From Bolinopsis microptera (lineage: Eukaryota; Ctenophora; Tentaculata; Lobata; Bolinopsidae): 64,000 bases of DNA. Both the position numbers and the translations under genes were made by a program. Shown piece by piece: positions 1-49,800 of the stretch (position 1 is its first letter; each line of letters begins with the position of its first letter). The stretch spans positions 3,799,675-3,863,674 of the forward strand of contig NC_087078.1 in assembly GCF_026151205.1 (NCBI RefSeq), in the 5' to 3' direction. The notes beneath the pieces are model-generated. The model ran no database searches. It saw only the letters and a program-made list of their open reading frames with translations, and was not told the origin of the DNA.

Positions 1-465
1 TCCACAGCGGTCTCCAGAGCCACATTACCTCCCCACTATAAAAACACCCGACCCTCAAGCTGGTCTCAGGACCCCATTCAGAACAACAGACCCACTTGAC
101 TGTAACCCTGGTAATCCTGGTAACCCTGGTAACCCTGGTAACTCTGGTAACCCTGGTAACCCCCTGGTATCCTCAGCTTGTGTCACCAGGAGCCCAACAC
201 CTGCTAGTCTTGTCTTACGGAGGATCAGTGCTACCAGCAACAGCCCAGCTCTAAACAGCACTATAACCGGTCTGAGTCCAGTGGTGGAGGAGCAGCTCTC
301 CAGACAGAAGAGTGAAACGTTCGAGGTGGTGGACTCGGATAACACAAAGTTTACCTTCAGTATTATATCAGAGATAGCAGCAGCTGGACAGGACGCCCTG
401 GGTAATTGCGTGGAACCTAATGGTCCTATCCAGAAAACATGCAGAGCTATCTCAGAGTGCATCAG
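1..465 (+). CDS. Candidate alternative N-terminal exon, 5' end outside the window
   Basis: Reading from base 2, the frame is open for about 154 codons up to a donor AG|GTACGA at 465/466, ending in phase 2. There is no start codon in frame near the left edge, so the exon begins upstream. The product is Ser/Thr/Pro-rich with a short in-frame 9-bp repeat (Asn-Pro-Gly units, about 109-165). An LRRIS motif fits a basophilic kinase site. The distal part is acidic and then ends with Cys-Ile-Arg. I do not recognise the protein. The phase matches the acceptor at 19887, as for the other exons of the 5' group. The opposite-strand open frame at 55-483 is taken to be its shadow. Confidence 0.45.
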
Positions 466-1900
466 GTACGACTTTTTAATCAATATATATCAGGTACCTA
501 CTTCACTTTAATCAATATTCAATTGTGGCTTTGATTAATTGCGATTGTTTGTCAGGTCTGCAAAGAAAGGGGACACATTTACCCGTTTTGTTTTTTTATA
601 AAATTTATTCCTCTTGCAGGTGTATCACTATATGTATCGGGTCGGGCTCACGCTAACTGATACTACCTGTGTATATGTATGGGTAGAATCACGTGGGGGT
701 CTGGAGGGGGGGGGTCTGGGGCTGTTTCGTAATAGTGAGTAATAATGCCGGAATGGTCACGGTATAAAGAGTTTCGCGGTATGAAGAAGCACAATTTACA
801 AGGCTTTTATTGTGTCGCCGACTAGGGATTACCGATTGTCGACTGGTGCCACCCGAGTTGCAAGATAGCGCAGAAAATGATAACCTCATTCGCGTTTTGT
901 TTATCTTCGGAAGAATGGTTCAATCTCACAATCAACACCAAAGTCTAGGTTCCCACTTAGAGACGCAACTTGTTCAATGGCAAAATTTTACTCTTCAAAA
1001 TTTTACTCTTCAAGCATTAGTGACTTATCCATAAATTCAAAGAGTTAGGTGTTGAGTATTGTGCTCTCAAGTGTGAGACGTGAGACACACACCATGTCAC
1101 AACTGCTACTACTACAAATCTACAACTCTCCCTGGCCCTTGTTCAAGTACATCGTTACACTGCGTTACTTTTTGTTGCCTTCAACTCGGTGGAGCCCTTA
1201 TTTAAGTTATATATTAAGCCATTCTGGTGACATCAAAATACAGAGTAATGGACTTTCTAAAACCCATTAGTGGCTATTTTCATTTATAATATCTTGAATG
1301 CTATTTATCGAAGAAGAATTCACTTTTCGTTACTGTATCAGAATGTTTCAACCAATTTGTTCTCTCTAACGAAAAGAATTAAAGACCTTTAGGACATTTA
1401 AAATATTTTAAGGCCTTTCAGATTGAACTTTGTTGCAGAGCGTGAATATATCAATAAATTTGTAACGCCTGCGAGTTTGTTCTCCTTTAGTCCACGGAGC
1501 AAGGACCTGCTTGTTTTGATGCGCCCGATAAAGAGCTTGCAATTTATATGTCTCCAATTTTAATGGGAAAATGACAGGACCGTAAATAAAAGAGTTGTAA
1601 AGATGTAGTAAAGTAGTAAACTGTAGGAAGCCATTAAACAGATTTTTTAGATACTCCGACGGTTAGCATTTATTTGCATTTTGTTAAGATAATCAGAACT
1701 CGGATAATTTCATTAAAAATTAAGCTACATTTTAAAAAGTAAATTTCTTGTAAGTTTCAGTCAGGAAAAAGATTACTCTCGTATTGTAGTATTGTAGTAT
1801 TGTAGTGTTGTAGTATTATGTTGTGTGTTTCACTGTTCAGCTCCTAATCTCAAACCAATCTCGGTACACTGTACCGGGCATTATTAACAGCCATATCCAA
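466..1900. other. Non-coding stretch, presumed intron
   Basis: AT-rich sequence with no convincing exon. A G-rich patch at about 691-722 has several runs of three or more G and could form a quadruplex. Short open frames at 810-1034 and 1049-1270 have no usable donor in the expected phase. TATTGTAG-type short repeats occur near 1780-1815. Confidence 0.5.
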
Positions 1901-4900
1901 GAGACACAGTTTGGTGCCTCAAGTAACAGAGACACAGTCTGGTGCCTCAAGTAACAGAGACACAGTCTGGTCCCTCAAGTAACAGAGACACAGTCTGGTG
2001 CCTCAAGTAACAGAGACACAGTCCGGTCCCTCAAGTAACAGAGACACAGTCTGGTGCCTCAAGTAACAGAGACACAGTCTGGTGCCTCAAGTAACAGAGA
2101 CACAGTCTGGTGCCTCAAGTAACAGAGACACAGTCCGGTGCCTCAAGTAACAGAGACACAGTCTGGTGCCTCAAGTAACAGAGACACAGTCTGGTGCCTC
2201 AAGTAACAGAGACACAGTCTGGTGCCTCAAGTAACAGAGACACAGTCCGGTGCCTCAAGTAACAGAGACACAGTCCGGTGCCTCAAGTAACAGAGACACA
2301 GTTTGGTGCCTCAAGTAACAGAGACACAGTCTGGTCCCTCAAGTAACAGAGACACAGTCTGGTGCCTCAAGTAACAGAGACACAGTCTGGTGCCTCAAAT
2401 AACAGAGACACAGTCTGGTGCCTCAAATAACAGAGACACAGTCCGGTGCCTCAAGTAACAGAGACACAGTCCGGTGCCTCAAGTAACTGAGACACAGTCC
2501 GGTGCCTCAAGTAACAGAGACACAGTTCGGTGCCTCAAGTAACAGAGACACAGTCTGGTGCCTCAAATAACAGAGACACAGTCTGGTGCCTCAAATAACA
2601 GAGACACAGTCCGGTGCCTCAAGTAACAGAGACACAGTCCGGTGCCTCAAGTAACAGAGACACAGTCCGGTGCCTCAAGTAACAGAGACACAGTCTGGTG
2701 CCTCAAGTAACAGAGACGCAGTCTGGTGCCTCAAGTAACAGAGACACAGTCTGGTGCCTCAAGTAACAGAGACGCAGTCTGGTGCCTCAAGTAACAGAGA
2801 CACAGTCCGGTGCCTCAAGTAACAGAGACACAGTTCGGTGCCTCAAGTAACAGAGACACAGTCTGGTGCCTCAAGTAACAGAGACACAGTCTGGTGCCTC
2901 AAATAACAGAGACACAGTCCGGTGCCTCAAGTAACAGAGACACAGTCCGGTGCCTCAAGTAACAGAGACACAGTCCGGTGCCTCAAGTAACAGAGACACA
3001 GTCCGGTGCCTCAAGTAACAGAAACACAGTCCGGTGCCTCAAGTAACAGAAACACAGTCCGGTGCCTCAAGTAACAGAGACGCAGTCCGGTGCCTCAAGT
3101 AACATAGACACAGTCTGGTGCCTCAAGTAACAGAGACGCAGTCTGGTGCCTCAAGTAACAGAGACACAGTCTGGTGCCTCAAATAACAGAGACACAGTCC
3201 GGTGCCTCAAGTAACAGAGACACAGCCTGGTGCCTCAAGTAACAGAGACACAGTCTGGTGCCTCAAGTAACAGAGACACAGTCTGGTGCCTCAAGTAACA
3301 GAGACACAGTCTGGTGCCTCAAGTAACAGAGACACAGTCCGGTGCCTCAAGTAACAGAGACACAGTCCGGTGCCTCAAGTAACATAGACACAGTTCGGTG
3401 CCTCAAGTAACAGAGACACAGTCTGGTGCCTCAAGTAACAGAGACACAGTCTGGTGCCTCAAGTAACAGAGACACAGTCCGGTGCCTCAAGTAACAGAGA
3501 CATAGTCTGGTGCCTCAAGTAACATAGACACAGTTCGGTGCCTCAAGTAACAGAGACACAGTCCGGTGCCTCAAGTAACAGAGACATAGTCCGGTGCCTC
3601 AAGTAACAGAAACACAGTCCGGTGCCTCAAGTAACAGAGACACAGTCTGGTGCCTCAAGTAACAGAAACACAGTCTGGTGACTCAAGTAACAGAGACATA
3701 GTCCGGTGCCTCAAGTAACAGAAACACAGTCCGGTGCCTCAAGTAACAGAGACACAGTCCGGTGCCTCAAGTAACATAGACACAGTCTGGTGACTCAAGT
3801 AACAGAGACGCAGTCCGGTGCCTCAAGTAAGAGAGACACAGTCCGGTGCCTCAAGTAACAGAGACACAGTCTGGTGCCTCAAGTAACAGAGACACAGTCC
3901 GGTGCCTCAAGTAACAGAGACGCAGTTTGGTGCCTCAAGTAACAGAGACACAGTCTGGTGCCTCAAGTAACAGAGACACAGCCTGGTGCCTCAAGTAACA
4001 GAGACACAGTCCGGTGCCTCAAGTAACAGAGACATAGTCTGGTGCCTCAAGTAACAGAGACACAGTCCGGTGCCTCAAGTAACAGAGACACAGTCTGGTG
4101 CCTCAAGTAACAGAGACACAGCCTGGTGCCTCAAGTAACAGAGACACAGTCCGGTGCCTCAAGTAACAGAGACATAGTCTGGTGCCTCAAGTAACAGAGA
4201 CACAGTTCGGTGCCTCAAGTAACAGAGACACAGTCCGGTGCCTCAAGTAACAGAGACACAGTCCGGTGCCTCAAGTAACAGAGACACAGTCCGGTGCCTC
4301 AAATAACATAGACACAGTCTGGTGCCTCAAGTAACAGAGACACAGTCTGGTGCCTCAAGTAACAGAGACACAGTCCGGTGCCTCAAGTAACAGAGACACA
4401 GTCCGGTGCCTCAAGTAACAGAGACACAGTCCGGTGCCTCAAGTAACAGAGACACAGTCCGGTGCCTCAAGTAACAGAGACACAGTCTGGTGCCTCAAGT
4501 AACAGAGACACAGTCCGGTGCCTCAAGTAACAGAGACACAGTCCGGTGCCTCAAGTAACAGAGACACAGTCTGGTGCCTCAAGTAACAGAGACACAGTCC
4601 GGTGCCTCAAGTAACAGAGACACAGTCCGGTGCCTCAAGTAACAGAGACACAGTCTGGTGCCTCAAGTAACAGAGACACAGTCTGGTGCCTCAAGTAACA
4701 GAGACACAGTCCGGTGCCTCAAGTAACAGAGACACAGTCCGGTGCCTCAAGTAACAGAGACACAGTCCGGTGCCTCAAGTAACAGAGACACAGTCTGGTG
4801 CCTCAAGTAACAGAGACACAGTCTGGTGCCTCAAGTAACAGAGACACAGTCCGGTGCCTCAAGTAACAGAGACACAGTCCGGTGCCTCAAGTAACAGAGA

Positions 4901-4979
4901 CACAGTCTGGTGCCTCAAGTAACTGAGACGCAGTCTGGTGCCTCAAGTAACAGAGACACAGTCTGGTGCCTCAAGTAAG
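1901..4979. repeat. 28-bp minisatellite, about 110 tandem copies
   Basis: An unbroken head-to-tail array whose unit runs cctcaagtaacagagacaca followed by gtctggtg. Copies differ by a few substitutions, mainly CTGG/CCGG/TTGG before TG, CAGAG/CATAG/CAGAA and GACACAG/GACGCAG, with almost no length change. The unit is not a multiple of three and the array holds no long open frame, so it is non-coding. It lies between candidate first exons 1-465 and 8292-8392. Variants are interspersed in higher-order patterns, which suggests unequal exchange. Confidence 0.95.
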
Positions 4980-8392: not shown

Positions 8393-9719
8393 GTAATATT
8401 ATGTGGAGGATCCTTAACAAATGGCTTGATATGATTACGGACATGTCTTTGAGTCTGTCCTCTCAAAGTTTCACCTAACAAAGTTTCATTACTTAGTGGA
8501 ACACAGGAAGAGAATCACACAAATGTCCTTGAATTGCAAAACAACAACAGCAGTGTAGTAGTAGTGGGTAGCAGTGTATGGTAATTAAGTGGTGGTTTGA
8601 TGGGTGTCCAAATTAGGAATTAACTTCTAATTAAGGCTTGTTTTTTGTGATAACCAGGTCTTTGGCCCCGCGTTTCGTCCTTTTCAGCACTTCTAGTAAG
8701 TTTAACTGTCTGCTTACCCTGTAAGTAAGTGCTGTATAATTTCTCTTTAACAAATAGAAATAATAAGGTCTCCTAATAACATTTAGAGGAATTGACAGTT
8801 TCATGTATTTATTGAAATGAGCATAATAAAGCGGGCCACGTCATAGAGGTACCAGGTTGGTCAAGGTTTGAAACGGGCACTTGTAAAACAGACTTTTCTT
8901 TTGGGCATTTGTAACTCGCTTTCAGTTGTTCATTACATTCTTCTTCTTCTTCTTCGTAGGGGGCGGTGGTCATTATCACTAATGGAAAGATCGTGACCAC
9001 TGTAAGATAGAGCTTTGGAGCCCTGTGCTTACCCCGGTAAAAATTAAATTTAATTGGTTCATTACATTAGGGTTCATAGTAGAAAGGGACAAGCAATGCA
9101 CAGAATTACGACCTTGAGATCTTCCCTCTATAAAGATCAAAGATGTAGTTATTACACCGACTTTCGATATCATATCACTGTGATGCATCTCTTACAGCGT
9201 ACACATGTGTAGTTGATAGCACTAGTAGTGACTAGTAGTACTACTGTAGTGGTAGTTATATGATTAAAGGTCCGACCTGGCGAGTCTGGAGTCCTACTGT
9301 TTGCTTATTACCAGTCTAGTGTCACACTGTGTCAGTCGCACTTGTATTTATTTATTTTGTATGCTTTTCTTTTTACTCTGAAGGCACTAAACATCAGGAC
9401 TAGGTTACCGATGTGGTTTTATCAAGGTGGTTGTATAAAGGCCGCGTGCGTGGTGGCGGTGTTTACTTTTTTCTGATATTTGACATTGAGTTGCTATGGT
9501 TACATTTTAGGTTCATATCTTTAACGTGATTTCATGGTTCGAGTTACTCATGTATTAGATATATTTCAGATCAAAAATATATCTGTTAGACTTTAGTTTA
9601 GTTCTTACGACTTCATATTTCTTTTTTGGTGTTTCTTGGTGTTTGGTCAGTCTATCTGCTATAATGTTTTGTAATCACTTAACAAGAATCACTAAAACCG
9701 CTCCACCAAGACCGGAACA

Positions 9720-10183
9720 ATGAAGCGAGGGTCGGTGATAAAACAGAACAGCATCAGCTCAGGGTCAGATACTCACCTCAGTGAGACAGCTCCCCTGGTT
9801 CGTAGCTACAGAGTGTCCGATGTAACTGCAGTCCGGTTATCAGACCTCATCCTGCCCCTCAATCACCCTTTAGAGGAGATAGAGATACCAGATCAGGAGT
9901 ACCTGGGCTCCACTGAGTCTATCATCAGGAAGAAAGTGCAGTTTACCGCAGAAACCAGCCCAGTTTGTACGAGAAAGAAAAAGAGGAAGCTGTCCTCAAG
10001 AAAGTCTATTCATGAAATTAGATTCGCGCCTTCGAGTCAGATTGAGGAAACAGAAAATGGCACTGATACTATTTTTGACCCATCTGAAGGAGCGATGGAT
10101 CAGATAAAAGTGCCGGCGGTGAAATTTGAACCACATTCCCCCAAAATGTCAGCTGCAAAGAAGAGGTGGATTAAACTAGCGCT
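9720..10183 (+). CDS. Candidate alternative first exon (basic/acidic N terminus)
   Basis: An ATG at 9720 in a fair context (AACAATGA) opens 154 codons plus two bases, ending at a strong donor CT|GTAAGT (10183/10184), phase 2. The peptide begins MKRGSVIKQNSISSGSD. It has a very basic cluster in the middle (RKKKRKLSSRKS), usable as a kinase or lipid-binding site or a nuclear signal. Acidic Glu/Asp stretches follow, and it ends in an amphipathic RWIKLA. No known domain is seen. The codon choice and low complexity look like coding sequence for a disordered cytoplasmic tail. Splicing to 19887 continues the frame. It could instead belong to an unrelated gene. Confidence 0.5.
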
Positions 10184-11086
10184 GTAAGTAAACAATCGTA
10201 GATTTACATAATTGACTCTATACATACTCAGTTAACTAGGTTATATCATCTACTTGTTATTAATAAATAATTGTAATTACCATAATTCTCTAAATCTCGC
10301 CAAAGTTTTTCCAATTCCCACTGAGTAGCAGTAGTACTACTAACTACTTCTTCAGTAGCTAGTAATTATGGAGGAGTTGTAGTGGCTGTGAAATCGGTAA
10401 TGAAGCGCCACCCTAAATTAACTTAGTCAAGGAAAACTTAAGAGGTTTTATAATCATCATGGGATCAAGTTGATGTTATTAGCCCTGCGTCTCACCCACA
10501 CAGAGACTATACAAGTCACTTGTTTTTACGAGTTGTGTGATTTGATCAGGTGGAAATCTGCAATTTAGCCCTGTCACAATGCCTAAAAGTAAGACATACG
10601 TGAAATTTTGGGATAATAGTATGTAGTAAACCAATATAAATTGGCAAACTTTCCGCTAGCTTATGTGAAAAATTGGCGAAAATAAATTTGCTATTAATTT
10701 ATAAACACACAAAACAGTGGAACATCTCACCAATTGCCTCATTGAAATATGGACACTTTTACACGGTATGTCTAGGACAAGGAGACATAACTTTGTGGCT
10801 AGTCTCACGTCAAATAGTAACGTTGTCATGGTAACCCGGGTTGTCTCATGGTTTCCTGACAGCTGGTGAGAGCATTTACCGCATCGCTTAAAATAATTCA
10901 AATAGTTGTTTTTTGAGGGAGTTTGTAATTTGTAAGTTTGCAGATTATTTTGTGAGCTAGCTATTTTCTGTCACTTGTAGTTGATCCGTATCAACGTTGC
11001 AGAAGCAAATAAACAAGTTCCTGTCTAGTGTCTACTTTTTAAGAAGTCCTATTGTCACTGAGTAGAAGTACACTATACTACCTGAA
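10184..11086. other. Non-coding stretch, presumed intron and promoter of the next exon
   Basis: AT-rich sequence with no exon that can be supported. The minus-strand frame at 10656-10901 has no splice or homology support. The last 100 bases before 11087 presumably hold the promoter or 5'UTR of the next candidate exon; no TATA box stands out. Confidence 0.35.
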
Positions 11087-11376
11087 GTGGCGTTGATGGA
11101 GTTACCTCCTCACGGGTCCTTATCAGAGCTGGTGATTACAAGACAGGACTTCCAGCAACAGAGCCTCGTCACAGTTGAGGATATTTGTGTAGCTTTTGAG
11201 GGGGATTTGGAGAGAAGAAATGTAGAGAGGAGGCAACTGTGTTATGAGAACAAACATGCTCAGACGGTGGAAGAGGAGGAGGAGGAGGAGGAGGAGGAGG
11301 AGGAGGAGGAGGAGGAGGAGGAGGAGGAGGAGGAGGGACAAAGGTCTGAGGACCTCTACAAGGAATGGAGGAGTTT
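11087..11376 (+). CDS. Candidate alternative first exon with a poly-glutamate tract
   Basis: The frame from 11087 encodes 96 codons plus two bases up to a strong donor TT|GTAAGT (11376/11377), phase 2. The first ATG in frame is at 11096; 11087 itself is GCGTTG-context, so the 11096 start is preferred. The N-terminal part is ordinary mixed sequence (MELPPHGSLSELVITRQDF). It is followed by a GAG/GGA run at about 11272-11335 coding an uninterrupted stretch of more than 20 Glu, then a short charged end, YKEWRSL. Glu-rich segments are known in the GARP region of vertebrate CNGB1, but there is no homology here to call. The antisense poly-Leu frame is a shadow. Confidence 0.45.
11272..11335. repeat. 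GGA/GAG trinucleotide microsatellite (coding poly-Glu)
   Basis: A pure GAG-phase triplet run inside the candidate exon 11087-11376. Length changes would keep the frame and alter the length of the acidic tract. Confidence 0.9.
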
Positions 11377-11619: not shown

Positions 11620-11621
<2 letters not shown>

Positions 11622-15045: not shown

Positions 15046-15785
15046 TTAAATACCAATTAAAGCCTCTCCTCGTATCATACAAATCCTAATCTGTCGACAA
15101 AAGGAGTTCACACTCTCACAGTACGTCTAATCTCTATATCATGACACTGCATGTCCCTTTTATCACTCCTGCCTGTTAATTTACGTACTACTCTGAGATA
15201 AGAGCAGAGGTTAAGGTTTTGTGTCCGTCTCAGTCTCTAAGTCTAAGTCTCTAGATTAATAGAGTTTGATCCATTATATTGGGTATTCTAGGTTTTAATT
15301 TTTGTGTTTCGGTGACGTGTTTTTCTGAACTGTGACTGAAATGATATGAAGATCGGCAATATTGCTATTGATAAACTCACTTTTAATATCATGATTGATA
15401 CAAAAATTGGATTGGCCAGGTAAAAAACTATCGCGTAATGTTTAAGTGCCGGTCATGTCCGAAGATTGGTGATTTTTTTCTTCAGTTCTTCATATCTAAA
15501 GCATAGGTAGTGATTCGCGTATCTTATCAAAATCAAATGGGTATCAGCTACGCAGTGCCGGCAGTCAATGTTTTATAATATTTGTGGTAGTGTCATTCTG
15601 TTGTTTAAAAGGGCCAAGTGGTGACCCTGATGGTACACGTGTACTATTAATCTCACGTACTTTCTGTAAATAACCCTAAGTGAGCAGTAGTAGTACTGCT
15701 CTGAGCGCTTTATTGCTACTAAACGTACTGAGCTTTTCCTTTTGTCAGCGAACTATTAGCTAAGAGTTCTATAAGAGTGTAGCTG

Positions 15786-16219
15786 ATGTCAGGGATACAG
15801 GAACCAGCCCCAGATATCACCACCGAGCCCTCCGTCATGTTCGTTAACGATGCAGCAGCTCAGCAGTTCACCACCCCCTCCTGCTCCGCCTCCAGCCAGT
15901 TCACCACCCCCTCCTGTCCCGCTTCCAGCCAGTTCACCACCACCTCCTGTCCCGCCTCCAGCCAGTTCACCACCCCCTCCTGTCCCGCCTCCACCGTGGC
16001 TAGTCCCCGCTCTTCGGGTGTAGCCCCTCCTGAGCCTTGGGATCTAGACAAGATCTTCCTGTACCCGGGCAGATTGGGGCTCCACCAGGCCCCTCTGAGG
16101 AGGTCTAGTTCTTGTAACATTCCTCTGATAAAGCAGACTAGTGCTGTTCCAGAGATACTGAGGGATGATTATGTGGGCTATATCCGGGACTCTGGACCTA
16201 ACGAGATGACGCTCAAAAG
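15786..16219 (+). CDS. Candidate alternative first exon with an 11-residue coding repeat
   Basis: An ATG at 15786 opens 144 codons plus two bases to a donor AG|GTACAA (16219/16220), phase 2. After MSGIQEPAPDITTEPSVMF comes a 33-bp coding minisatellite (about 15867-15990) of four Gln-Phe-Thr-Thr-(Pro/Thr)-Ser-Cys-(Pro/Ala)-Ala-Ser units. Then comes an ordered-looking stretch (EPWDLDKIFLYPGRLGLHQ), an LRRSSSC kinase-type motif and a mixed tail ending MTLKR. The third base is rich in C in the repeat, consistent with coding use. No family was recognised. The phase matches the acceptor at 19887. Upstream, an E-box at 15636-15641 could be part of its promoter. Confidence 0.45.
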
Positions 16220-16736
16220 GTACAAACACTAACAGTTACTACCATACTTGCTTTTATTATCTTATCTTATATCTGCTTATCTTGTATCAGCTTATCTTAT
16301 AGATAGCTTCGTTTATCTAATATAATGTAGGATATTACAGGGTTGCCTGCACAGTTTACTTTGTGTCAATTTAAACTTTTAAGACAGAATCGTTTCATTC
16401 GATTTCATATCTGCTTTTTAAGGTTGGTATCTTTCTATGTGATTTTGTTGTTGTTATCTGTAATCAAAATCTGTCGAATAAATGATTGATAGGTCAAATG
16501 AGGATGAATGATGTCGATTAGCGATGCGTGAAATTTAATTTTCATGCTGAATCTTATGTTAAACTGCTCAAGAACATCAAAGGCCACATTATGTGTTGTG
16601 ACCAATTCACACTTGTGATCAAATGATCTCAGGTTTAAATTATAAGGTTTCCTGAAACACCTACTCCTGAGGTCCTCACAAAGTAAGGTCTGTAATTTAA
16701 CAGTCTCTTCAGCTTGTTCGCGGTCTATATTCTATA
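16220..16736. other. Non-coding stretch, presumed intron
   Basis: AT-rich, with TTATCTTATATC-type short repeats at 16255-16300. Nothing else seen. Confidence 0.4.
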
Positions 16737-17047
16737 ATGCACCTCACAGAGTGCCGTGTTGAGGTGAACTCATTGGGCAGACTGATAATCACACAGCTGC
16801 TGGTAATCACACAGCTAGTAATCATCACACAGCTGCTGGTTATCACGCAGCCAAGCCCTTCTTTCCAGATCATTTCTACAGTACAATTAATGATCCCCGA
16901 CCGTTACATCTTTAGAAGATGTGTCTCACATGATGGCTACAGTGTGTCAGCCACTTCATTTGAAGGCAACTTCAGGGAAGTGTTCGTTCGTGGTTTTATG
17001 AGAATGCTCGACTTGTACGTTTCTAGTGAAAGTACAGTACCTCGGAG
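16737..17047 (+). CDS. Possible alternative first exon
   Basis: The frame from an ATG at 16737 runs 103 codons plus two bases to a donor AG|GTAGGT (17047/17048), again phase 2. The proximal part contains a degenerate repeat coding Leu-Val-Ile-Thr-Gln units and is hydrophobic, which is unusual for a cytoplasmic tail. A start at the later ATG 16890 (MIPDRYIFRRCVSHDGY) would avoid the repeat. The distal part is mixed and aromatic, ending STVPRR. No homology was recognised. Phase agreement with its neighbours is the main support. Confidence 0.3.
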
Positions 17048-17103
17048 GTAGGTTACAGAAAGGTTACAATAACATAAACCCGCCACGCAAAGGGTTTATA
17101 TAA

Positions 17104-18623: not shown

Positions 18624-19432
18624 ATGAGTGTGAGGGCGGGTGGAGTTAAACTTCCTCCACTTGCAACTAAGAAGAAGAGGAGGTCAAAGCAGCCTAAAAG
18701 TAGCGTTGTTCCACATGAAACGGAGTACGAGTTAACTCCGACTGATTCAGATTACATTGCTTTTGTTGGCAGTAAGCAGGAGGAAACCCCAATAGATGTA
18801 CCCAGTCAGTTTGAAGACAGTTCAACTGTAATTCTAAACAATGTCGTCAACCCTGAGAGTGAGATTGAAAGAGAAAAGGAGGAGGAAATGCTGAGGAACA
18901 ATATTGATTTAGAGGCCGGGGAGAAACACGATCTAGTCTCTAATGAGGGCACCAACCATAAAGTAGTGAATGTTCGGCCAACATCTGCGGCAGGGACGAA
19001 TGTTCCTGAAGATGGAGAAGTCGGAGATAAACCAAAACAACAAGCTACGGTTATTAAAAACGAGCTTGCTGACCATAAAAGTATACAAGACCGTCCACCC
19101 TCTACTCGACCGCTCTCCGCGCCAGAAATATATTTACCAGATGAATACAAAGAAAAAAATATATCAAATACTGAGGAAGCTAAAGATGAAGAAGCTAAGG
19201 CTGACACTGAGGAAGCTAATTCTGAGGAAGCTAATCTTCGGCCAGGAGACCAGGTGTGGACAGACTCTGTTTATGACAGTGACGAACTGGATGATGCAGT
19301 GGTTGGGGGCACAGCTGGCGGTGAAGATGGGGAAGGTCAGGAATTGAAGGTACCCAGGAGTTTCCTCCGAAGATCAAGCGAGCAAGGAAAGAAATTTAAA
19401 TTTGCAGTAACGAAAGTGTTGCTAGACAGAAT
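18624..19432 (+). CDS. Candidate alternative first exon (long acidic N terminus)
   Basis: The first in-frame ATG is at 18624; the frame is open slightly further upstream. It runs 269 codons plus two bases to a good donor AT|GTGAGT (19432/19433), phase 2. The product starts MSVRAGGVKLPPLATKKKRR and is then strongly acidic with short Glu-Glu-Ala repeats near residues 190-215. It ends with a basic patch holding LRRSSEQGKK and an amphipathic FAVTKVLLDRM. The layout of disordered acidic tail, RRSS and a short helix recurs in neighbouring candidate exons. The next exon at 19887 is only 454 bases away and continues the frame. Overlapping open frames at 18806-19207 (-) and 18970-19347 (+) are shadows. 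Confidence 0.55.
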
Positions 19433-19886: not shown

Positions 19887-19971
19887 GGCGAACAAAACAG
19901 CGCTAGATCAGAAGTTAAAAGTGCACCCAACCTCAGAGGAAGGGAGCAATGGGAACCATCTCGGTCCAGAT
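19887..19971 (+). CDS. CNGA-like: Shared internal exon of the upstream transcript class
   Basis: An 85-nt exon between acceptor TTTTCAG (ending 19886) and donor GAT|GTGAGT. Entered in phase 2 it reads ANKTALDQKLKVHPTSEEG then SNGNHLGPD and exits in phase 0. All seven upstream candidates end in phase 2, so each can join it without a frame break. One other frame is also open over this short exon, so frame is assigned from neighbours. No domain is recognised. Confidence 0.5.
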
Positions 19972-20358: not shown

Positions 20359-20442
20359 GGTAAGAATAACGTACAGAGCATGGCCAGTGTTGCACAGACC
20401 ATCACATTCATCAGACGTATCAGCAAACGCACCGGCAAAAAG
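20359..20442 (+). CDS. CNGA-like: Shared internal exon with a basic RRIS segment
   Basis: 84 nt, phase 0 to phase 0, between acceptor CCGGGGCAG and donor AAG|GTCAGT. It reads GKNNVQSMASVAQTITFIRR then ISKRTGKK: an amphipathic helix followed by a very basic stretch with an RRIS kinase-type motif. It follows exon 19887-19971 in frame and would join the S1-side exon at 50137 (entry phase 0) across a ~29.7-kb intron containing the second group of candidate first exons. The long-range join is inference. Confidence 0.45.
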
Positions 20443-31904: not shown

Positions 31905-32177
31905 ATGGACGATCAGATCTCTGTAGACTTGGAGAGGGATGAAAATGGGGGAGTGAGAAACTTAACAGACAGTTGCCCTAGTGACACGGACAGTTGCCCT
32001 AGTGACACGGACAGTTGCCCTAGCGACACGGACAGTTGCCCTAGCGACGACCCGCAAGATGAAGAAATGACGGAGCTGCCTGAAATGAAGACGTTCTCTC
32101 CGAAGAAACCCCCGTTGCAGCGGAGAAAGAGCAGTATTCAGCGGATGATGGAGCTAGTGCTGGATACGGAGGATAAG
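31905..32177 (+). CDS. Candidate alternative first exon with a 7-residue coding repeat
   Basis: An ATG at 31905 opens 91 codons to a good donor AAG|GTAAGC (32177/32178), phase 0. It begins MDDQISVDLERDENGG, then four near-identical 21-bp units coding Asp-Ser-Cys-Pro-Ser-Asp-Thr (about 31971-32047). An acidic stretch, a basic segment with QRRKSSIQ and an amphipathic MMELVLDTEDK follow. The plan of acidic tail, RRxS and short helix repeats that of exon 18624-19432, but the donor phase is 0, as needed to join 50137 directly. No domain is recognised. Confidence 0.5.
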
Positions 32178-32694
32178 GTAAGCTACGTCACAAATAGGTA
32201 TAGGTTTTAATAGATTTTGTTGTTTTTTCAGTATTTTTTTATACTATACTTTTAACATTTTTGCTCAGAATCTTCTAAATCGTTTAAAAAATGAACTTTT
32301 AGCTACCTACCCTAGACGATTTTCGGCTAAAAAACCTATTATAATAATACCTGTTATTCCCCTCCGATTTCTAGCTACGTGACAATCACGTGGGGCGGGG
32401 CCCGGTCAGGGGTATTAACAATGCAAATATCGGGTTAGGCGAGGGGTTGAATATGTAATGTGAGGGTCTGATAATGTGTGGGTCTGATAATGTAGCTAGA
32501 CAAGCTGCCCTGTTTGAACACCTGCTCAGTGCTGCATGTATTCATTATTCACCCTCCGATATTTGTGTACTTGTAAAGTTGTAATTTTAGAGTTCTGTAA
32601 CTTTCACAGCCCGCTGCCTAGTGTCCATCCTTGTGTATTGCTTTGGGTCGCGTTATATTTACCTTATTTTTGATTAGTTAGTACTCCATTAATG
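32178..32694. other. Non-coding stretch; likely intron and promoter of the next exon
   Basis: Includes a CACGTG E-box (32387-32392) beside a short GC-rich patch, about 300 bases before the candidate first exon at 32695. Nothing else stands out. Confidence 0.35.
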
Positions 32695-32787
32695 ATGAAA
32701 TTGAGGAGAAAGTTGTCATGGTTAAAAAACCTTGATCTCAAGAAGTTAACATTGTTTTTCCAGCCTCAAAAGTTGGATAACTTAAAG
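32695..32787 (+). CDS. Candidate alternative first exon, copy 1 of a duplicated pair
   Basis: An ATG at 32695 opens 31 codons to AAG|GTTGGT (32787/32788), phase 0. The peptide is short, basic and Leu-rich (MKLRRKLSWLKNLDLKK, ending LDNLK), suggesting an amphipathic helix. A paralogous exon with the same beginning (MKLRRK), similar 5' flank and the same phase lies at 33244-33312. The conserved ATG, frame and donor in two diverged copies support real coding use. Confidence 0.45.
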
Positions 32788-33243
32788 GTTGGTAAAGATT
32801 TAGTTTTATAAAAAACGATCGTAATGATAATAAAAAAATTACGATTCGTATTATCTGATATGTTATTAACATTGGGAATTACAAGGAGGAATTAAACAGG
32901 AATTAGACAGGAACAGGTAGTACCACTACCATTGCATACAACAAATAGTAACTGGTACTGGACTACTTTTGTTAAAACCTAAAACACCTAGAATCTGTTG
33001 ATACCCGAAACAAGATGGCTACTAGGAATCTAACTTGATCACTACTGCTAACTTGTTAACGTCTACTACTGGGAGGGTTTAACCTATAACGTTCGGGCTT
33101 GTTCGGGCTTGTTCGGGATTGTTCCCCCTAATTAAAATTTCAACATCTCCGACATGGCCTTATAACCAGCATTCTTGTTTGTGTATTGGTTTAATTCGCG
33201 TTCAATTTACCTAATTTTGTGAATAGTTAACACTTCATTAAAG

Positions 33244-33312
33244 ATGAAATTGAGGAGAAAATTTAACTTGTTGAAATTATTTCTCAAGCCCAAAAAGGAG
33301 GATTTCTTGAAG
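33244..33312 (+). CDS. Candidate alternative first exon, copy 2 of a duplicated pair
   Basis: An ATG at 33244 opens 23 codons to AAG|GTGAGT (33312/33313), a strong donor in phase 0. The peptide starts MKLRRKFNLLKLFLK and ends PKKEDFLK. Against copy 1 it has lost eight codons in frame and diverged in the middle, while the basic start, the Leu/Lys character, the frame and the phase are kept. It would add a short amphipathic N terminus to the channel if joined to 50137. Confidence 0.45.
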
Positions 33313-35484
33313 GTGAGTAACTGAAAGATCAAATTCAATGAAATAGTACCTTATCACTTATCAGTCGTAATTTTATTGGCTGAAATGATGACTAGCTAAG
33401 GTTTTGGTGGCTAGAAAATCAAAAGTATGGGCACAAAAAGCCACTCAGATCTATGATTTTTTCAACAATTTTTGGCAAATTTTTTGTGATTCGACCTTTT
33501 ATTTCAAACAAATAGAAGATGCGTTCTATTTTTGACCGTAAATTAAACAAACAATAAGGTCGTCTTTGTTATCTGTTTTGCTGCCAGCACATTTTATGAG
33601 ATTATCTCTTTCCACATGAGACAACGGGCATTTTAGTAATTTAATAAAAAAAGATGAGAACAGAAAATATTTGGTTGGTGAAAATAGGTCGGAGAAATTT
33701 CTTTATCTTATCGGTAAAAATGTGAGTGGCTAAAAGTTTAGTTACAACAGCCGTTTACGTTCTTACCAACCACATGTTAGCCGATAAGGTTAATCTCGGT
33801 AAAACAAACACTTTTTATAAAATTACGATTCTTATTATCTGATATGTTATTAACATTAGGAATTACAAGCAGAGATTAAACAGGTACCATCACATACAAC
33901 AAATAGTTACTGGTACTGAATAACTTTTGTTAAAACCTAAAACACCTAGAATCTGTTGATGCCCGAAACAAGATGGCTACTAGGAAAGTAGGAATCTAAC
34001 TTGATCACTACTGCTAACTTGTTAACGTCTACTACTGGGAGGGTTTAACCCAAGGTTCGGGCTTGTTCTCCTTAATTTCAACATCTCCAACAGATTATAT
34101 ACTATATAGCTAGTTTCCAATATACTTATAGGAGATTATAACCAGTTCCTAGCAGTCTCTAACAGGGGAGGAGGGGATTGTCACCAGTTCTCAAAAGTCT
34201 GGAGAGAGAGCTACATGGTGGTGAAATTACATTAACATGCAGCAACCGTAATATTACAATATTATTATAGTTATGTGGCCGAGTTAATATACTTATAAAT
34301 TAAGGTAATGTCCTATTCGTCCTAGTTTCGTTGTAGATCTTGCTTTGTGAACATTGAACAATAAGAAGCTCTGTGGACAATAGGTTTAATATCATTTAAA
34401 AGGACGCCGCTATTTCACCTGTGACCTGATGCTAAGGACATTCGCAATTGATCTAAATGTAAGTTATACTACCCGGAGAACATTATCATAACAGACAGAT
34501 TTACATGTGATGATACCAAGTATATAAGGGAGAGAGGGAGACAGTATAAATAGTTATTTCTTATTCAGATGGTATATATAATGGCGCGATATATAGGGTT
34601 AGGGTTAGGGCTAGGTATAGGGTTGGTGTGAGTCTCTGTTATGTCGCTACTTTCCTACTGCATCCTTCTTTTGCGTATAGTCTTAAGTCTTCTATAGTTA
34701 TATCTTTATATTTATGCGCATCAATATATGTGTCTAACTTAAATTGGTGAATACAAATACTACCCCTTCAAATTTTAGTCGGTGAATCATCACCGCCATA
34801 ATTTATTATTCAATTAAGCTACAAGGTGTCCTTTCGCAAGCATGTTATTTCAAGACTGTAAAAATCTCTCTCTCAAAATATACGTTTACAAAATATTAAA
34901 GAATATGTGTACAGCTTAGAGATAAAACTTGCCAGTGATGCTATGTCTAAAACTTTAGAGTGTATTCCAAATTAGAAATCTTAACTCATTGGAGAAGTGT
35001 GCTTCTCATTAGGTCCGCATAAAAACTTTCATTCATCTTATGAAGGTCAAAATTAGAAAAGGGTGGCCCCACAAGGAGTTGGTATTCTCGATAAAGTAGT
35101 AATGTCTTGTATCAGTGCTGCAGGAGCCCTCTATATCTTTCAATCTTAGCGTGACAGGCCGCAGGACGGATAAGATGAACTCTTGAGTATTAATTAGTGC
35201 ATCGCACTGCACGTGTGCGCTGGTCCGTTGCCACGAGATACCCACGTGATGCCCACGTTGCTACCATATGGGTTCCACGTGGCGCACCGTCTGCCTTTTA
35301 TTGGCCTCTCCGCACTTCAGCTAACAGTAATTGTTTTTTATCGTGCATTGCTGCGATTTACGGTACTAGTGTCTCGTGTAAGCGTTCCGTGCATTTCTTT
35401 CAGGGTGCAAGTTTGTGTGCACTTTTGAGTTTTGCTTTTTTGAGTTCAGGTCTAAATTTGTTGGCTATTAGTTGTGACGTCACC
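33313..35484. other. Non-coding stretch, presumed intron and promoter
   Basis: Holds the second half of the duplication, AT-rich sequence, a short interstitial (TTAGGG)-like patch near 34596-34615 and a regulatory-looking region at 35200-35482 with three CACGTG E-boxes and a CRE. Confidence 0.4.
35210..35482. promoter_or_regulatory. Probable promoter: three CACGTG E-boxes and a TGACGTCA element
   Basis: CACGTG occurs at 35210-35215, 35243-35248 and 35276-35281, and a perfect CRE palindrome TGACGTCA at 35475-35482, two bases before the start codon at 35485. The region is GC-richer than its surroundings. The CRE overlaps the 5' leader, so if it acts in transcription it would lie at or just downstream of the start site. 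Confidence 0.45.
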
Positions 35485-36066
35485 ATGATGCAGAGCTTGT
35501 CTAATAATAGCGCAGCTTCTCCTAACCATTTGAACAGCATCTTGGTCAACACATCAACGATTTCAACTCCGCCTCAATCGTCTAATATTAATATAACCTC
35601 ACGTAAAAGTTCTACAGTTTCATCTGACACATCTTTTTACAACTCCAGAACAAACTCTCCTCGGCCAGTACTAAATAGCTCCTCTCAATTTGAGGTAGTT
35701 AACCTGAAGTCTCGAACTAGCTCCCTCGCCTCGACCCCTCCAGATCTGAACCACTTGAGCTCTCCTAAGAGCTCCACGGTATCGTCCCCCCACCAATCTA
35801 TATGCATGAACCATGACTCCGCCCCACAGCTGCCCAGTGTGGTTATCAACAAGTCCAGCTCTGCAGACTCTTCTCTCTACAAATCATCAGGTCCCCCTTC
35901 TAGAAGGATCTCCGAGAACTCTCTGAGTAACCACGTGCTGTCTGGCAGTAGTCACGTGCTCTCCAGGAGACTCTCCACCGTAACCACGGTAACCACCGGC
36001 ACAGCTTCCTCATCCAGGTGGGCTAAAGCTGCTTGGATTCTCGGAATCACTGGAACTCAAATGAAC
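35485..36066 (+). CDS. Candidate alternative first exon (long Ser/Thr-rich N terminus)
   Basis: Tandem ATGs (35485, 35488) in a strong context (CACCATGATG) open 194 codons to AAC|GTTAGT (36066/36067), phase 0. The product is extremely rich in Ser, Thr, Asn and Pro, with repeated (K/R)SSTVSS-like segments. Near the end it has two basophilic kinase motifs (SRRISEN and SRRLSTV), then an amphipathic SRWAKAAWILGITG. The frame is open further upstream (from 35197), but the Kozak match favours 35485. It is a disordered cytoplasmic tail by composition. The RW-x-KxAW end recalls the RWIKLA end of exon 9720-10183. Confidence 0.55.
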
Positions 36067-37509
36067 GTTAGTATTCCCCTTCATTCACTAGTCCCTGTAT
36101 ATTATTAGCATATTATTTTCGTGCGTGTGTTAATAGGTCAATATATTGACCATATAAACAAACTATGTGTAGATTTAACTTTATTGTCTACCTTACTAAT
36201 TCACAAGATATGTGATTTAAAGGTTTACAACTTGGCTCTACAAATTGGTAGGATTGTGATGGATTTAAGCACGGTTACATTTTCTTCTGAACACTCAAAT
36301 ACCAACAATTAAATCACAATTAAAATCTCAAAATAACTGACTGACCGTTTCACTATTTCACTATTTCACCGATTCACTATTTAACATTTCTTTCCAGAAA
36401 GTTAGACATTATTTGGTCTTTACCCTCAAAGTTACGCTCGAATTTTATAAACACGAAAAATTATCTATTAAATACGTGAAATTTATGGTGATATTTATAT
36501 TAAGGAATAAAATAAAAACGTATATTCTTTAAGCAGTGCAAAAGGGTCGGATTATTAATACCTTTAACGTGTCATTACTCATTAATAACCAGATGGAAGA
36601 GACTCGACTTCTTAATAATCTTCATCACATGACATATTAGTCTATTCTTAGTATCGCCTATCATGTAGTCTCCGTTAAAACTCACAAATGAATATATTGA
36701 CAGTCAATTTCTTCTTTATTACATCCAAGTTCATTATTTACCTTTCAGCGGTGGCAAAACGATCATAGTTAATGCGATTTGTCAGTTTCGAGTTTATCAG
36801 TATTTCATAGGTATCGTTTTCCGATTTTTTCAGTGTCTTGATATAAAAGTACATAAAAAACGAAAGAGTGAAGAAAAGTGTAATTGCGAAATTAAAGGGC
36901 ACTTTCGTTCTTATCCCTTAATATTCCGCCGTATATGCATATCACGGCGATATGTTCAGTGTTAAAATAGATAATAAGGGCTATTAGCTGGAGGCTAATT
37001 AAGGAACAGACCTAACTGCTTAGTCTACTAGTACTCTATTTGTTATGGTGATTAACTCCTCCCTGTCACCATGGTTACTCCCTGAGGTAGACCTCTAGCA
37101 GCCTGCTCTACTTGCTAGGTAGACTACTCAGCAGTATTCGGTACACAGCTCCTCTCTAGCAGGGTAATGTTATCCGAGCTAGCAGCTATAACATTGTGTG
37201 AGTTAGGGGCTCTAACGTTGTATGAATAATGGGTATTAGACAAATGGCTCTAACAATGACCCCTTGGTCGGGGTCGGATGAGGCAAACTGAGCAGCCCTT
37301 CTCATTGATAGTAGTAATACAGGAGCTCTGACAAAGCGACCACTTAACACATAAAGACTAGAACAATACCATGCATTGCAGATTAATAAGATAATACCAT
37401 CACTTACTTGTTTATGACATAATATTTCTCTCCGCGAGTATCACTGTCATAACGTTTTGGTAGTGCGGAGAGTGCGGATAGTGCGGAGGGTGCGGAAAGT
37501 GCGGATGTT
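36067..37509. other. Non-coding stretch, presumed intron
   Basis: AT-rich, no supported exon. A short GTGCGGA-type repeat (37463-37507) runs up to the next candidate start codon. Confidence 0.4.
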
Positions 37510-38834: not shown

Positions 38835-39077
38835 ATGAACATATCACTACCAAACATCGCTTCAAGCCGGAGACTGAAGCAGATCCGGCACAAGCGGCCC
38901 CTGACCCTGCCGTTCTCTGCCCAGCTAATCACAATGGCAGTGGAGAAGGAGGAGCTGACTGTCTCCTCTACTAGTGGACCCAGCACACCCTCCTCTTCCT
39001 CTGCACAATCTCCGAAACCAGCAAAGTCCCCCACTAACCCTCTCCAGACATTCTCATCCCGCAGTTTTAAAACACGC
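38835..39077 (+). CDS. Candidate alternative first exon (basic then Ser/Pro-rich)
   Basis: An ATG at 38835 opens 81 codons to CGC|GTGAGT (39077/39078), a strong donor in phase 0. The peptide starts MNISLPNIASSRRLKQIRHK (basic), becomes Ser/Thr/Pro-rich in the middle (SSTSGPSTPSSSSAQSPKP) and ends TFSSRSFKTR. No domain is recognised. A genuine coding exon is supported by codon use and by the donor. The antisense frame 38744-39034 is a shadow. Confidence 0.5.
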
Positions 39078-42225: not shown

Positions 42226-44820
42226 ATGATAATCACATTCGATCTGCCATTGTGGATTAAGGCCACCCGAATAGTACTGGAAACTGGGATGCCTATTGTG
42301 GTCAGGGTTAGGGGCTTCCACACTCTCAAGAGTTTTCTTGGCTGCATACTGCATAGGCTATATAATGGCAGACTCGGGTTTAGAGGAGCTCATCAAACTC
42401 GTGTATCCTGGAGACGTCACGCATATATCGGATGGAGGATCTTACTATAATAATATAAAGCGTTGAGAGCCCACTTTCTGATCGACGCCGCTCTTTGTTG
42501 TTTCATTATAGAGGAAGAAGTTTACGACGATGAACTAGTAGACTTGGAAGGTTACATCAACAAATGTGTGAACGAAAATCTAGGTGTTAACTTTAAGACT
42601 AAATCTATTCAGGATCTATCAGAGAAAATAACTCTGCTTCAAAAGAACCTGTTCTCCAACAGTAGAACAGCAGCTCTATGGGTTACTTACCACAATATGA
42701 TAACACTAGTAAAGGACTTCATAAGAGCAGAGAGGTTGCACGACTACAATATGCATTTATCAGCAGTAGCTTTGATGCTGCCCTACTTCGCAGCAGCTGG
42801 GAGGGGACAGTATGCAAAACCTTTAAGACTGTATTTGGAGCAGGATGCTATTTTTGAAGTCAAGTATGGGGCGCTTTTAAAGACCTTTAAAGTAACTGGG
42901 CTTCACACGGTTAGTTACAACGACCACGAGTGGGCCGGGGTGTGGACTGACCTCTCCATAGAGCAGAGTCTTATGAGGGCAGCTAAATCTAGTGGTGGAT
43001 TAACAAGTGGAAGGATGCGTAATCGTGAGTCCGCTCACAAGTTATGGGTGGCCACCCTGAATCAGATGGCTTCAATAAATCAGTCTTTTGGAGATTCATT
43101 AGCTAATTCATCGAAGCGAGTAGTACCAACTAAAGCTGCCATCCACTCAGATCTTACCAAGTCATCAATCAAGAAAAACTGTGATGTATTTGGAAAATTA
43201 TTAACTTGGTTTAAAGTTACTGTCGACTTTACAGTATCCGAAGATAAGACTAAGTTAATATCTTTTTCGACTGGTCTTATATCACAGTCTGGGAACGATG
43301 AGGTGAATCCCGAGGAATGTTTGGCCGTTGGGGCTGTCCTTCAACGTGAGCTAGATGGGTTGACATTCATCGATAAGATAAGTATCAAAGGTAAAGCAAA
43401 GAACTTGACACAACTAAGAAAGCAGGTTAAAGTGAATAATAAAAGCGTTGCATTCGATCCGTTGAAGTGTTTTAACCGTCTAGTCTTGGTTGCTGATAGA
43501 GAGACTTCAATAGAGGAATGCCTAACATACGAGTTAACTGTGGTGCCGATGAGCTTATTTGATCAATATCAGATGATGAGGAAATCTAATAAGGCTGCTC
43601 TTGGTAGCTACCTCAAAAACATAAACCAATCTACACTTAAATCTTGCAGCTTCACGATCCCACTAGTCATTGATGGAGGTTGGCTAATTCACCAACTAAG
43701 CTCATTTAAAGGGTGTGACAATTATGGTGAGGTAGCAATGGAGTACTTGAAGCTTATCCCTAAAAATCGGGAAGTTACTGTGATTTTTGATGGATATGAG
43801 CCTTCTACTAAAGATCACGAGCACAAGAGGAGAGTAAAAGCGTTCTGTGCTAATATTGCTGTAAAGAAATCCACCTTTTGTACTGTCACCAAAACAACAT
43901 TTCTGAGCAACAACAATAACAAAAAAGAACTGATCGACCTTATCTCAAGCATTTTTACTGTAAATGGTATTGAAGTGATCAGAGCTTGTAGCGATGCTGA
44001 TACTTTAATTGCAAAGAAAACATTGGAAATGTCATTCCTTGGCGATGTTGAATTGAAGGCAGAGGATACCGATATAGTTTGTCTATTAGTACATCATTTC
44101 AACAGTGGCCATCACAATGATATTTATCTAACAACGAAGAAGGGTACATATTCAATCAAAGAAATATCAAGTCATCTAGATCATAAAGAAAAGGAGATAC
44201 TTCTTCTAATTCATAGTATTTCAGGTTGTGATAGCGTCAGTGGACTGTTTGGTTTTAGCAAGGTTAAAGTGCTAAAGAAAGCTCTCACCTTTGATGAGCA
44301 AGGTCAGTTGGCAACATTACTTTCGGTGAGAGAATCAAAAGAAAAGATTATTGAGGCAGGCCTCTGTTTCTTGCAGTACATTTATGGTGACAAGAAAAAT
44401 ACTCCTTCTGCTTTGAGATTCCTAGCATACAATAGGATGGTAGCGAAAAAGAGTCTCAATCCGAATAGGCTACCTCCAACAATAGCTTCAGCAACGGAGC
44501 ACATCCTTAGAGCTTACTTACAGTACCATAACTGGGTCATGCTTAACGCTGACAGCCTGAATCCCCTTGACTAAGGCTGGAAATTGGCTCCTGGTGGCAC
44601 TTACGAACCAGTTGCAACAAAAGCTATAATTGCTCCAGAGCCTATTTTGAACCTTATATGTTGTAACTGTTCTGTCGATGTGGAACAGGCCTGTTTGACT
44701 TTCAGATGTTCATGTAGGAAATATGGCTTCAATTGTTTGCCAGCTTGTGGACGATGCCATGGTATGAACTGCACAAACATTAGACATGATGAACCTGAAG
44801 AACAAGCGAATTTTGATTAA
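42226..44820 (+). pseudogene. Transposon protein: N-terminal helical region, PIN/FEN-like nuclease domain, CXC domain; two frameshifts and one stop
   Basis: Three consecutive reading frames make one protein. Frame 1 begins near 42226 (ITFDLPLWIKA...GFHTLKSFLGC). It shifts at 42342-42355, where CTGCATA is tandemly duplicated (+7), then shifts again near 42445-42457. The main frame runs from 42463 to an in-frame TAA at 44572-44574 and continues to 44820. Recognisable parts are AGRGQYAK and a conserved SSGGLTSGRMRN-ESAHKLW region. PIN/FEN-like acidic motifs follow: IDGGWL (codon ~403 of the main frame), VIFDGYE (~439), CSDADT (~510), EDTDIV (~533) and a GCDSVSGLFGFSK turn (~587). After the TAA comes a Cys-rich CXC (tesmin/TSO1-like) segment (CRKYGFNCLPACGRC). 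Relatives are usually longer at the N terminus, so this copy may also be truncated. Confidence 0.8.
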
Positions 44821-48820: not shown

Positions 48821-48852
<32 letters not shown>

Positions 48853-49039
48853 TGCTACTACTCTCTTTATAACTACCTATACAACCTTTTTATAAAGGTT
48901 CTGACAACAGCAGCGCTATCTAGTTAATATAACAGAGCCTTTCCGAGAGAATGTTATACTTTTAGTGACACTGACATTATCGATCATGTCGTGTTGTTTG
49001 TGTTGGATCTAGAGCCTAGGTTGTTTTGCAATCTCTGTT

Positions 49040-49162: not shown

Positions 49163-49722
49163 GTATGTTTAAAAGTGTTAACCAGCCGGGGTTTCTTTAT
49201 CCCACAATATATTAATATGAGACAAAACAGAGAACATTACTCTTATGTGGGGGGGGGGGGGGAGGAGGGGGAGGGGACTGGAGGGGCTATAACATTATTC
49301 TTATGTTATTCATATTAAACCTCGTCACCCTGAAACAGTGATCTTTGCTTTTCCTGTTCTTAGTGACTGCCTCATTTCAAATCTCTATCTGAAGGTGTGC
49401 TCAATTGTTCTGAATTTCCATTTTGTTATCCTTATCAGTTTATGACCAGCTAGCCAATAAGAATGATGGGTAATATAATTATGATGACGTAATAACACGT
49501 TTAGACTACGTGGTGGCATCACGTACTACTTAACTATTATTTGACGACACAACCATCCAAAAATACGCTAAGACGGAAGTAATGGGCAAATTACACAGAA
49601 CACTTAATTAGGATTAGACGGTAACCTGTGCTGTACAGCAAGTACTAACGTTGCCAATATCTTATGTGTTTGGGCAAGTTTCTTTATTATTCCCTTGTTT
49701 GTTTGGAGTTGATGCCAGTAAT

Positions 49723-49800
49723 ATGCAGAAATTCAGTAGACAGTGTAGTGAGATCCTCCACAGACAATCCTTGATACCAACGTCATTAACTAGTCCAATT
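49723..49800 (+). CDS. Candidate alternative first exon nearest the channel core
   Basis: An ATG at 49723 opens 26 codons to ATT|GTAAGG (49800/49801), a good donor in phase 0. The peptide starts MQKFSRQCSEILHRQSLIPT and ends SLTSPI. It lies only 336 bases before the acceptor at 50136. It would give the shortest N terminus. Short length limits confidence. Confidence 0.35.

Follow-up and report, generated by a model that had tools for sequence, protein, structure and literature searches.

In the protocadherin and UGT1 clusters, variable first exons stand in a row before a constant region, and these variable exons are tandem duplicates coding for a domain. Among ion channels, the CNGB1/GARP isoforms and the Shaker-type channels have a few alternative N-termini. 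In the plectin gene (PLEC), about a dozen first exons with different short N-termini are spliced to a common exon 2, as outlined in PMC8468861. Here, a stretch of 64,000 nucleotides from the ctenophore Bolinopsis microptera (C7:3799675-3863674, referred to as the window) was analyzed within its genome of 264.65 Mb in 232 contigs, and the gene on its plus strand is a cyclic nucleotide-gated (CNG) channel. Elsewhere in this genome, a photoprotein gene belonging to a tandem array matches Mnemiopsin 1 over the full length (E 1.9e-127), as befits a ctenophore. It is proposed, with a probability of about 0.6, that the CNG gene possesses an array of coding first exons that are used alternatively. In the best reading of the sequence, about 8, perhaps 12, such exons would feed a single CNG core.

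From the reading frames and their phases we infer the splicing, the promoters and all of the function as follows. Six exons of the window (ending at 465, 10183, 11376, 16219, 17047 and 19432) would stand in a row before the acceptor at 19887, together with two that lie upstream of the window; their lengths are 90-270 codons. A separate start ahead of each exon would drive its transcription, and a phase-2 junction would link it to the shared exon 19887-19971, followed by 20359-20442 and the core beginning at 50137. A smaller and less certain set (32177, 32787/33312 and perhaps 36066) would bypass both shared exons and enter 50137 in phase 0. The isoforms would share the cyclic-nucleotide-sensing core and differ in the N-terminal tail, which is probably disordered and would often carry an RRxS motif of the protein kinase A (PKA) type, and the choice of promoter would set cell type, targeting and kinase feedback. 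One pore exon, A or B, would be used per transcript.

Candidate first exons before position 19887

All coordinates are window positions, and negative numbers denote positions upstream of the window on the plus strand. The candidate first exons and the two shared exons were located as follows:

-18959 to -18685, plus strand: candidate first exon, phase 2, starts with MGNKPS and carries RRxS
-4131 to -3755, plus strand: candidate first exon, phase 2
1..465 (ATG at -31), plus strand: candidate first exon, 165 codons, phase 2 donor CAG/GTACGA of 4.6 bits, frame 0 best, RRIS
9720..10183, plus strand: candidate first exon, 154 codons, phase 2, ends with AAKKRWIKLA
11096..11376, plus strand: weaker candidate first exon, 93 codons, phase 2, in which a GGA repeat encodes a long stretch of Glu
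15786..16219, plus strand: candidate first exon, 144 codons, phase 2, weak donor of 0.0 bits, RRSS
16737..17047, plus strand: candidate first exon, 103 codons, phase 2, strong donor of 5.9 bits whose TAG ends the frame
18624..19432, plus strand: candidate first exon, 269 codons, phase 2, donor AAT/GTGAGT of 4.2 bits whose TGA ends the frame, RRSS
19887..19971, plus strand: shared exon, 28 codons, phase 2 in and 0 out, proposed as the acceptor that the upstream array shares
20359..20442, plus strand: shared exon, 28 codons, phase 0 in and 0 out, basic segment TFIRRISKRTGKK directly before the conserved PDEFLQR

The phases were assessed on every ATG-led frame of at least 75 aa, taking for each the donor that scored highest within the final 150 nt and ignoring phase in the selection. 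Between -30 kb and 19,886 on the plus strand, the best donor was in phase 2 in 10 of 11 such frames. The main count leaves out the frame at 18970, which is nested within or overlaps that at 18624, and the low-complexity frame at -21364; since both are in phase 2, their exclusion lowers the count. Among the remaining independent frames (-20 kb to 19,886), 8/9 had their best donor in phase 2 (P 7.1e-5), when the null value, obtained from 1050 simulated frames, was 0.237. The donor itself created the stop codon, the frame ending exactly there, in six of the nine (null 0.062, P 4.0e-6). All the frames ending in the window before 19887 were in phase 2 (6/6, P 1.8e-4). Over 15 settings of minimal length and search range, with the dropped frames kept, P varied from 7e-6 to 0.054 and was at or below 0.0102 in 14. 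In the controls, phase 2 was recorded for 0/7 frames on the minus strand, 9/40 in eight 10-kb genome regions read on both strands, 3/10 in the downstream flank and 1/6 in the upstream flank from -60 to -20 kb, the single frame there being -21364. Two of the three hold-out frames upstream of the window (-4131 to -3755 and -18959 to -18685) also fit the phase-2 pattern. The set before 19887 consists of several ATG-led coding exons with donors in the phase of one acceptor.

The common phase bears on the possibility that the frames, situated within or ahead of the CNG gene, are short genes or represent the first exons of several different genes. Nested genes are common in ctenophores; for Hormiphora, PMC8527503 gives 12.24% of exonic bases in nested genes, many of them parallel to the host. 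However, separate genes need no common donor phase, when 8/9 of the frames share phase 2, and no Pfam family scored above the cut-off in the frames scanned, the stretches between the frames not having been searched for other exons. Such an arrangement is considered unlikely.

Coding potential was evaluated by a frame-contrast test, in which frame 0 was compared with the other two frames using codon tables from 40 kinase/channel domain segments of the same genome and two CNG paralogs. Frame 0 was the best in 9/9 independent upstream frames (calibrated null 0.44, P 6e-4). Among other frames of at least 75 aa, the respective control values were 21/41 for the genome, 3/7 for the minus strand, 3/6 for the upstream flank and 4/10 for 20443-50136. 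A first codon-usage test was set aside in favor of this one, because its null had been drawn from A+T-rich intron DNA and the result partly mirrored G+C content. It favored most candidates, including 36066 (p 0.003) and 39077 (p 0.0045) on synonymous codons; these two fail the frame-contrast test with the calibrated null.

The position of the start codons was analyzed as well. The first ATG lay no more than 17 codons from the start of the open frame or the preceding stop in 7/8 frames of at least 110 codons before 19887 (18970 left out), compared with 2/6 in 20443-50136 and 2/6 in the upstream flank; in 9720-10183, an in-frame stop precedes the ATG by 27 nt. Within the 150 nt that precede each ATG, the acceptor-like sites were no better than those at random places at 8/9 upstream sites (P 0.06 to 0.84). 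Together, the ATG positions and the ordinary acceptors favor first exons over internal ones. The latter would be expected if the frames were consecutive, phase-2-symmetric internal exons of a single transcript with one long N-terminus, the ATGs being incidental. All but one of the nine frames would join in phase 2 under such a scheme, and phase-2 acceptor-like sites were found inside four of the six window frames, namely 465, 16219 (four sites, lying in approximately four 33-bp repeats of 15786-16219), 17047 and 19432 (at 18614, just before the ATG), so that these four may be used internally. By the same criteria, however, no such sites were present in the 10183 or 11376 frames, and the proximity of the stops to the ATGs and the ordinary acceptors described above speak against a single long N-terminus. 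It is regarded as quite unlikely.

The same acceptor data concern spliced-leader trans-splicing, by which one long pre-mRNA would be capped at different acceptors and separate promoters would be unneeded. Spliced leaders were found on at least 56% of Hormiphora reads, according to PMC8527503, and a strong acceptor lies 15 nt before the ATG at 8292. The other eight upstream sites had no unusually good acceptors, and trans-splicing would alter how the starts arise, not that they are alternative. As a replacement for promoter choice it is judged very unlikely. The segment ending at 8392 was not counted as a member of the array, since it has 33 codons, a weak donor and a strong acceptor just upstream.

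One further feature recurs among the upstream exons proposed as an array of first exons. The RRxS motif, a classic PKA site, was present in 4/9 of them (-18959, 465, 16219 and 19432), while the mean in shuffled sequences was 0.4 and none of 2000 shuffles reached four. Of the 11 phase-0 candidates, 32177 and 36066 contained three further sites between them, with P 0.001 when sites are counted and 0.03 when exons are counted. Among variable exons of at least 75 codons, the motif was found in 6/12, compared with 4/60 control frames (P 9e-4). RRIS also occurs in the shared exon 20359-20442 and in the exon at 60812. The MGNKPS start of the -18959 exon resembles a myristoylation signal.

Several repeats were noted in this part of the locus. 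A 28-bp satellite (110 copies, 95% match) occupies 1900-4978 between candidate first exons, and short dispersed repeats at 20005-20044 (found at 22 other places) and at about 17063-17100 (at 41 or more others) follow soon after proposed donors. Searches at the DNA level with four segments (9650-10300, 15700-17040, 18500-19436 and 35194-36108), in which simple repeats and common words were skipped, found no second haplotype among the unplaced contigs, nor any further genomic copy of the variable exons in these parts.

Candidates between 20442 and 50137

The initial annotation had described up to about 17 ATG-led segments ending at GT donors, all in phase 2 before 19887 and all in phase 0 after 20442, as alternative first exons. 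Its list holds 18 ends. All 18 are followed by GT in the phases given, and in 18/18 that phase belongs to the frame with the longest ATG-led stretch (for 465, whose ATG at -31 lies outside the window, the longest open stretch). The donors at 8392, 11376, 16219, 36066 and 46625 are weak (0.4 to -2.4 bits). The best end donor of the 35485 frame is 36017 (phase 2), above 36066 (phase 0), and at the end of the 49040 frame 49162 is surpassed by 49246, likewise in phase 0. The acceptors 19887 and 50137 and the donor 20442 are present; the segment from 19887 to 20442 proved to be two exons. The claim of uniform phase holds beyond chance for the set before 19887, but not for that between 20442 and 50137 as a set. 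Similarly, the first cluster behaves as an array of first exons by its phase, codon signal, ATG position and two extra upstream members, but the second is not supported as a set. The following members of the second set were considered individually:

31905..32177, plus strand: the phase-0 first exon with the greatest plausibility, 91 codons, strong donor of 6.9 bits, frame signal, RRKS
32692..32787, plus strand: phase-0 candidate, tandem duplicate of 33244-33312, frame 0 not the best of three
33244..33312, plus strand: phase-0 candidate, tandem duplicate partner of the former, donor of 8.2 bits, the highest of the 18
35485..36066, plus strand: phase-0 candidate, two PKA-type sites (RRIS and RRLS), doubtful donor, frame 0 not the best of three
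38835..39077, plus strand: uncertain phase-0 candidate, 81 codons, frame 0 not the best of three

Single members, namely 32177, 36066 and the pair 32787/33312, are plausible, when the cluster as a whole does not exceed chance. The pair matches at 83.5% over the 5' flank and the start, with the ATG and the donor kept in both copies; one is 96 nt long and the other 69 nt, and the difference of 27 nt is divisible by 3. A 278-bp duplication (82%) lies downstream of each paired exon, at 32835-33104 and 33819-34068, so the tandem duplication exceeded the size of the exon. The phase-0 candidate at 26768 has a strong acceptor upstream (P 0.004).

A 625-codon mobile-element frame was located at 42697-44574, inside the 30 kb intron. 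Among the 40 of 115 candidates that were scored, at least 25 further full-length copies of this element were found (22 at 96-99% and three at 87% identity), in addition to partial ones.

A number of observations weigh against the proposed array. Between 20442 and 50137, the best donor was in phase 0 in 5/10 frames, one being a transposon, when the null was 129/314, and frame 0 was the best of three in 5/11 ends of the phase-0 list by the codon test. The join of 20442 to 50137 is drawn from phase alone, across an intron containing the mobile element. In the upstream set, the third hold-out frame (-14513, 178 codons) has a strong codon signal, and its best donor is weak and in phase 1. Of all frames in the set, 18624 shows the smallest codon margin (null P 0.34); the frame at 18970, which overlaps it, scores positive and higher in the same test, so the codon signal of 18624 is not clean. 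The acceptor-like sites inside four window frames and the lack of any Pfam family above the cut-off in the variable exons scanned are to be added here, as is the fact that RRxS was first spotted by eye and tested afterwards, which makes its statistics post hoc. Finally, the N-termini of two intronless CNG paralogs, taken as natural cDNAs, gave no convincing match to any candidate (lowest shuffle P 0.003, uncorrected over 40 comparisons).

As a set, the phase-0 candidates fit chance open frames from which a story was picked by phase, and the initial annotation itself admitted that short candidates had been sought by phase. The upstream set, however, passes the phase-blind tests and extends into sequence outside the window. 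As an explanation of the locus, chance is held to be highly improbable.

The channel core, the pore exons and the paralogs

The exons of the CNG core were assigned as listed:

50137..50275, plus strand: core exon 1, PDEFLQRL to FVFDPFS, phase 0 in and 1 out
50989..51070, plus strand: core exon, S1
51225..51322, plus strand: core exon, S2
51685..51791, plus strand: core exon, S3, phase 0 out
54366..55018, plus strand: pore exon A, S4-S5-pore-S6-C-linker, 653 nt, phase 0 in and 2 out
55740..56383, plus strand: pore exon B, S4 to C-linker, 644 nt, phase 0 in and 2 out
56944..57073, plus strand: core exon, C-linker and cyclic nucleotide-binding domain (CNBD) part 1
57424..57493, plus strand: core exon, CNBD part 2
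57696..57913, plus strand: core exon, CNBD part 3
59370..59426, plus strand: possible alternative post-CNBD exon, begins AARKKL, 57 nt, strong donor
60812..60971, plus strand: post-CNBD exon, begins AARQKL, contains RRISF, then a probable coiled coil
61240..61360, plus strand: last exon with the stop codon

The core joins at GT/AG sites into a single frame that ends in a stop, with 589 codons when pore exon A is included or 586 with pore exon B. This one frame contains S1-S6 of the CNG type, the TIGE filter, the C-linker and the CNBD, and the Ion_trans and cNMP_binding families of Pfam score above the cut-off in the gene product. In PDB matches, pore exon A corresponded to CNGA3 (E 3.6e-50), and the S1-S3 part matched CNGA2 from just before PDEFLQR. 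The exons 19887-19971 and 20359-20442 join 50137 in frame. The basic segment of the latter sits where vertebrate CNGA2 has its N-terminal calmodulin site, so the entry routes with and without it may differ in calcium feedback.

The two pore exons were absent from the array finding of the initial annotation. They enter in phase 0 and leave in phase 2, therefore a transcript with both would lose the frame. Identical residues were found at 135/214 aligned positions, with a nonsynonymous divergence (dN) of 0.29 and a synonymous divergence (dS) that was not computable. The dS is read as saturated and the duplication as ancient; together with the dN, this points to both exons having been kept for a long time. 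The exons are adjacent and homologous, have the same phases, break the frame together and are both constrained, and they are probably mutually exclusive. A 16-bp minisatellite array (53353-54331) lies just before pore exon A, and within this array the stretch 53683-53772 is an incomplete copy of the beginning of pore exon A.

At the other end of the core, the exons 59370-59426 and 60812-60971 both begin with AAR[KQ]KL. They are possibly alternative C-terminal routes.

Intronless CNG paralogs were found on the minus strand at C1:2629000-2636500 and C2:6535500-6541500, with frames of 676 and 624 codons. They are probably old retrocopies, because the introns are missing. Both carry B-like pores, the identity to pore B being 76% for the C1 copy and 66% for the C2 copy; between pore B and the C1 copy, dN was 0.14 and dS 2.1. 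In the C2 copy, the frame lacks an ATG ahead of the core. Similarity of the C1 copy to the gene starts where the 50137 exon begins, and its N-terminus is different, so the N-termini differ ahead of that boundary. The top tblastn match of the C1 N-terminus, searched alone, was the 39077 candidate, with an E of 0.21 and a shuffle P of 0.15. The paralog N-termini were kept solely as evidence for the 50137 boundary.

Considering the entry points, the pores and the C-terminal exons together, it may be suggested tentatively, and with less confidence than the array itself, that the gene encodes a combinatorial family. Approximately 10 or more N-termini, reaching the core through two entry points, would be multiplied by two pores and by the alternative post-CNBD exons around one fixed cyclic-nucleotide sensor, and many of the N-termini would have their own PKA and perhaps targeting signals.

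Comparison with known systems

The initial annotation had likened the locus to the protocadherin and UGT1 clusters. The layout fits, but the sequences do not, since the CNG gene has tandem duplicates only in the 32787/33312 pair. The variable exons scanned also gave no Pfam family above the cut-off, in contrast to the domain-coding exons of those clusters. Self-comparison of the window DNA revealed this one duplicate pair among the candidate first exons, so the variable exons are not, in general, tandem duplicates. In an all-against-all comparison of the peptides, six other pairs had a shuffle P below 0.02, uncorrected for 190 pairs; these were short or repeat-based, and one represented overlapping versions of a single exon.

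The CNGB1/GARP and Shaker-type channels resemble the CNG gene in having alternative N-termini and differ from it in their number. To our knowledge, no channel gene with this many alternative N-termini has been described, those of CNGB1/GARP and the Shaker type being far fewer. CNG channels of the same phylum as the window gene, CNGA and CNGC of Mnemiopsis, are treated in PMC9803222, which describes CNGA as broadly expressed, including in sensory and neuronal metacells. If the Bolinopsis gene were the orthologue of CNGA, such broad expression would suit many promoters. The main text of PMC9803222 does not use the terms alternative splicing, first exon or N-terminal, and among the open-access papers listed, none reported such a CNG first-exon array by title or by the start of the abstract.

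If the array is real, one gene in an early-branching animal would obtain, by the choice of promoter and exon, the channel diversity that vertebrates obtain from a gene family, and it would offer a testable case for how ctenophore cells specialize their signaling. It would also mean that large first-exon arrays can arise without tandem duplication. If the combinatorial family exists as well, its N-terminus would be more diversified than that of any other ion channel we know of, in a lineage whose neurons may be of independent origin, which is one published hypothesis (PMC4685580).

Plectin is a closer parallel than the protocadherins, because the variable exons of the CNG gene are not duplicates. 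In plectin, multiple coding first exons lead into one common exon, as they would in the CNG gene. Plectin is, however, a cytolinker and not a channel, and the CNG gene differs in its pair of shared linker exons, in the second entry point that it may have and in its duplicated pore exon. Multiple first exons joined to one exon are thus known from plectin, and the CNG channel of Bolinopsis would be a new instance of this arrangement.

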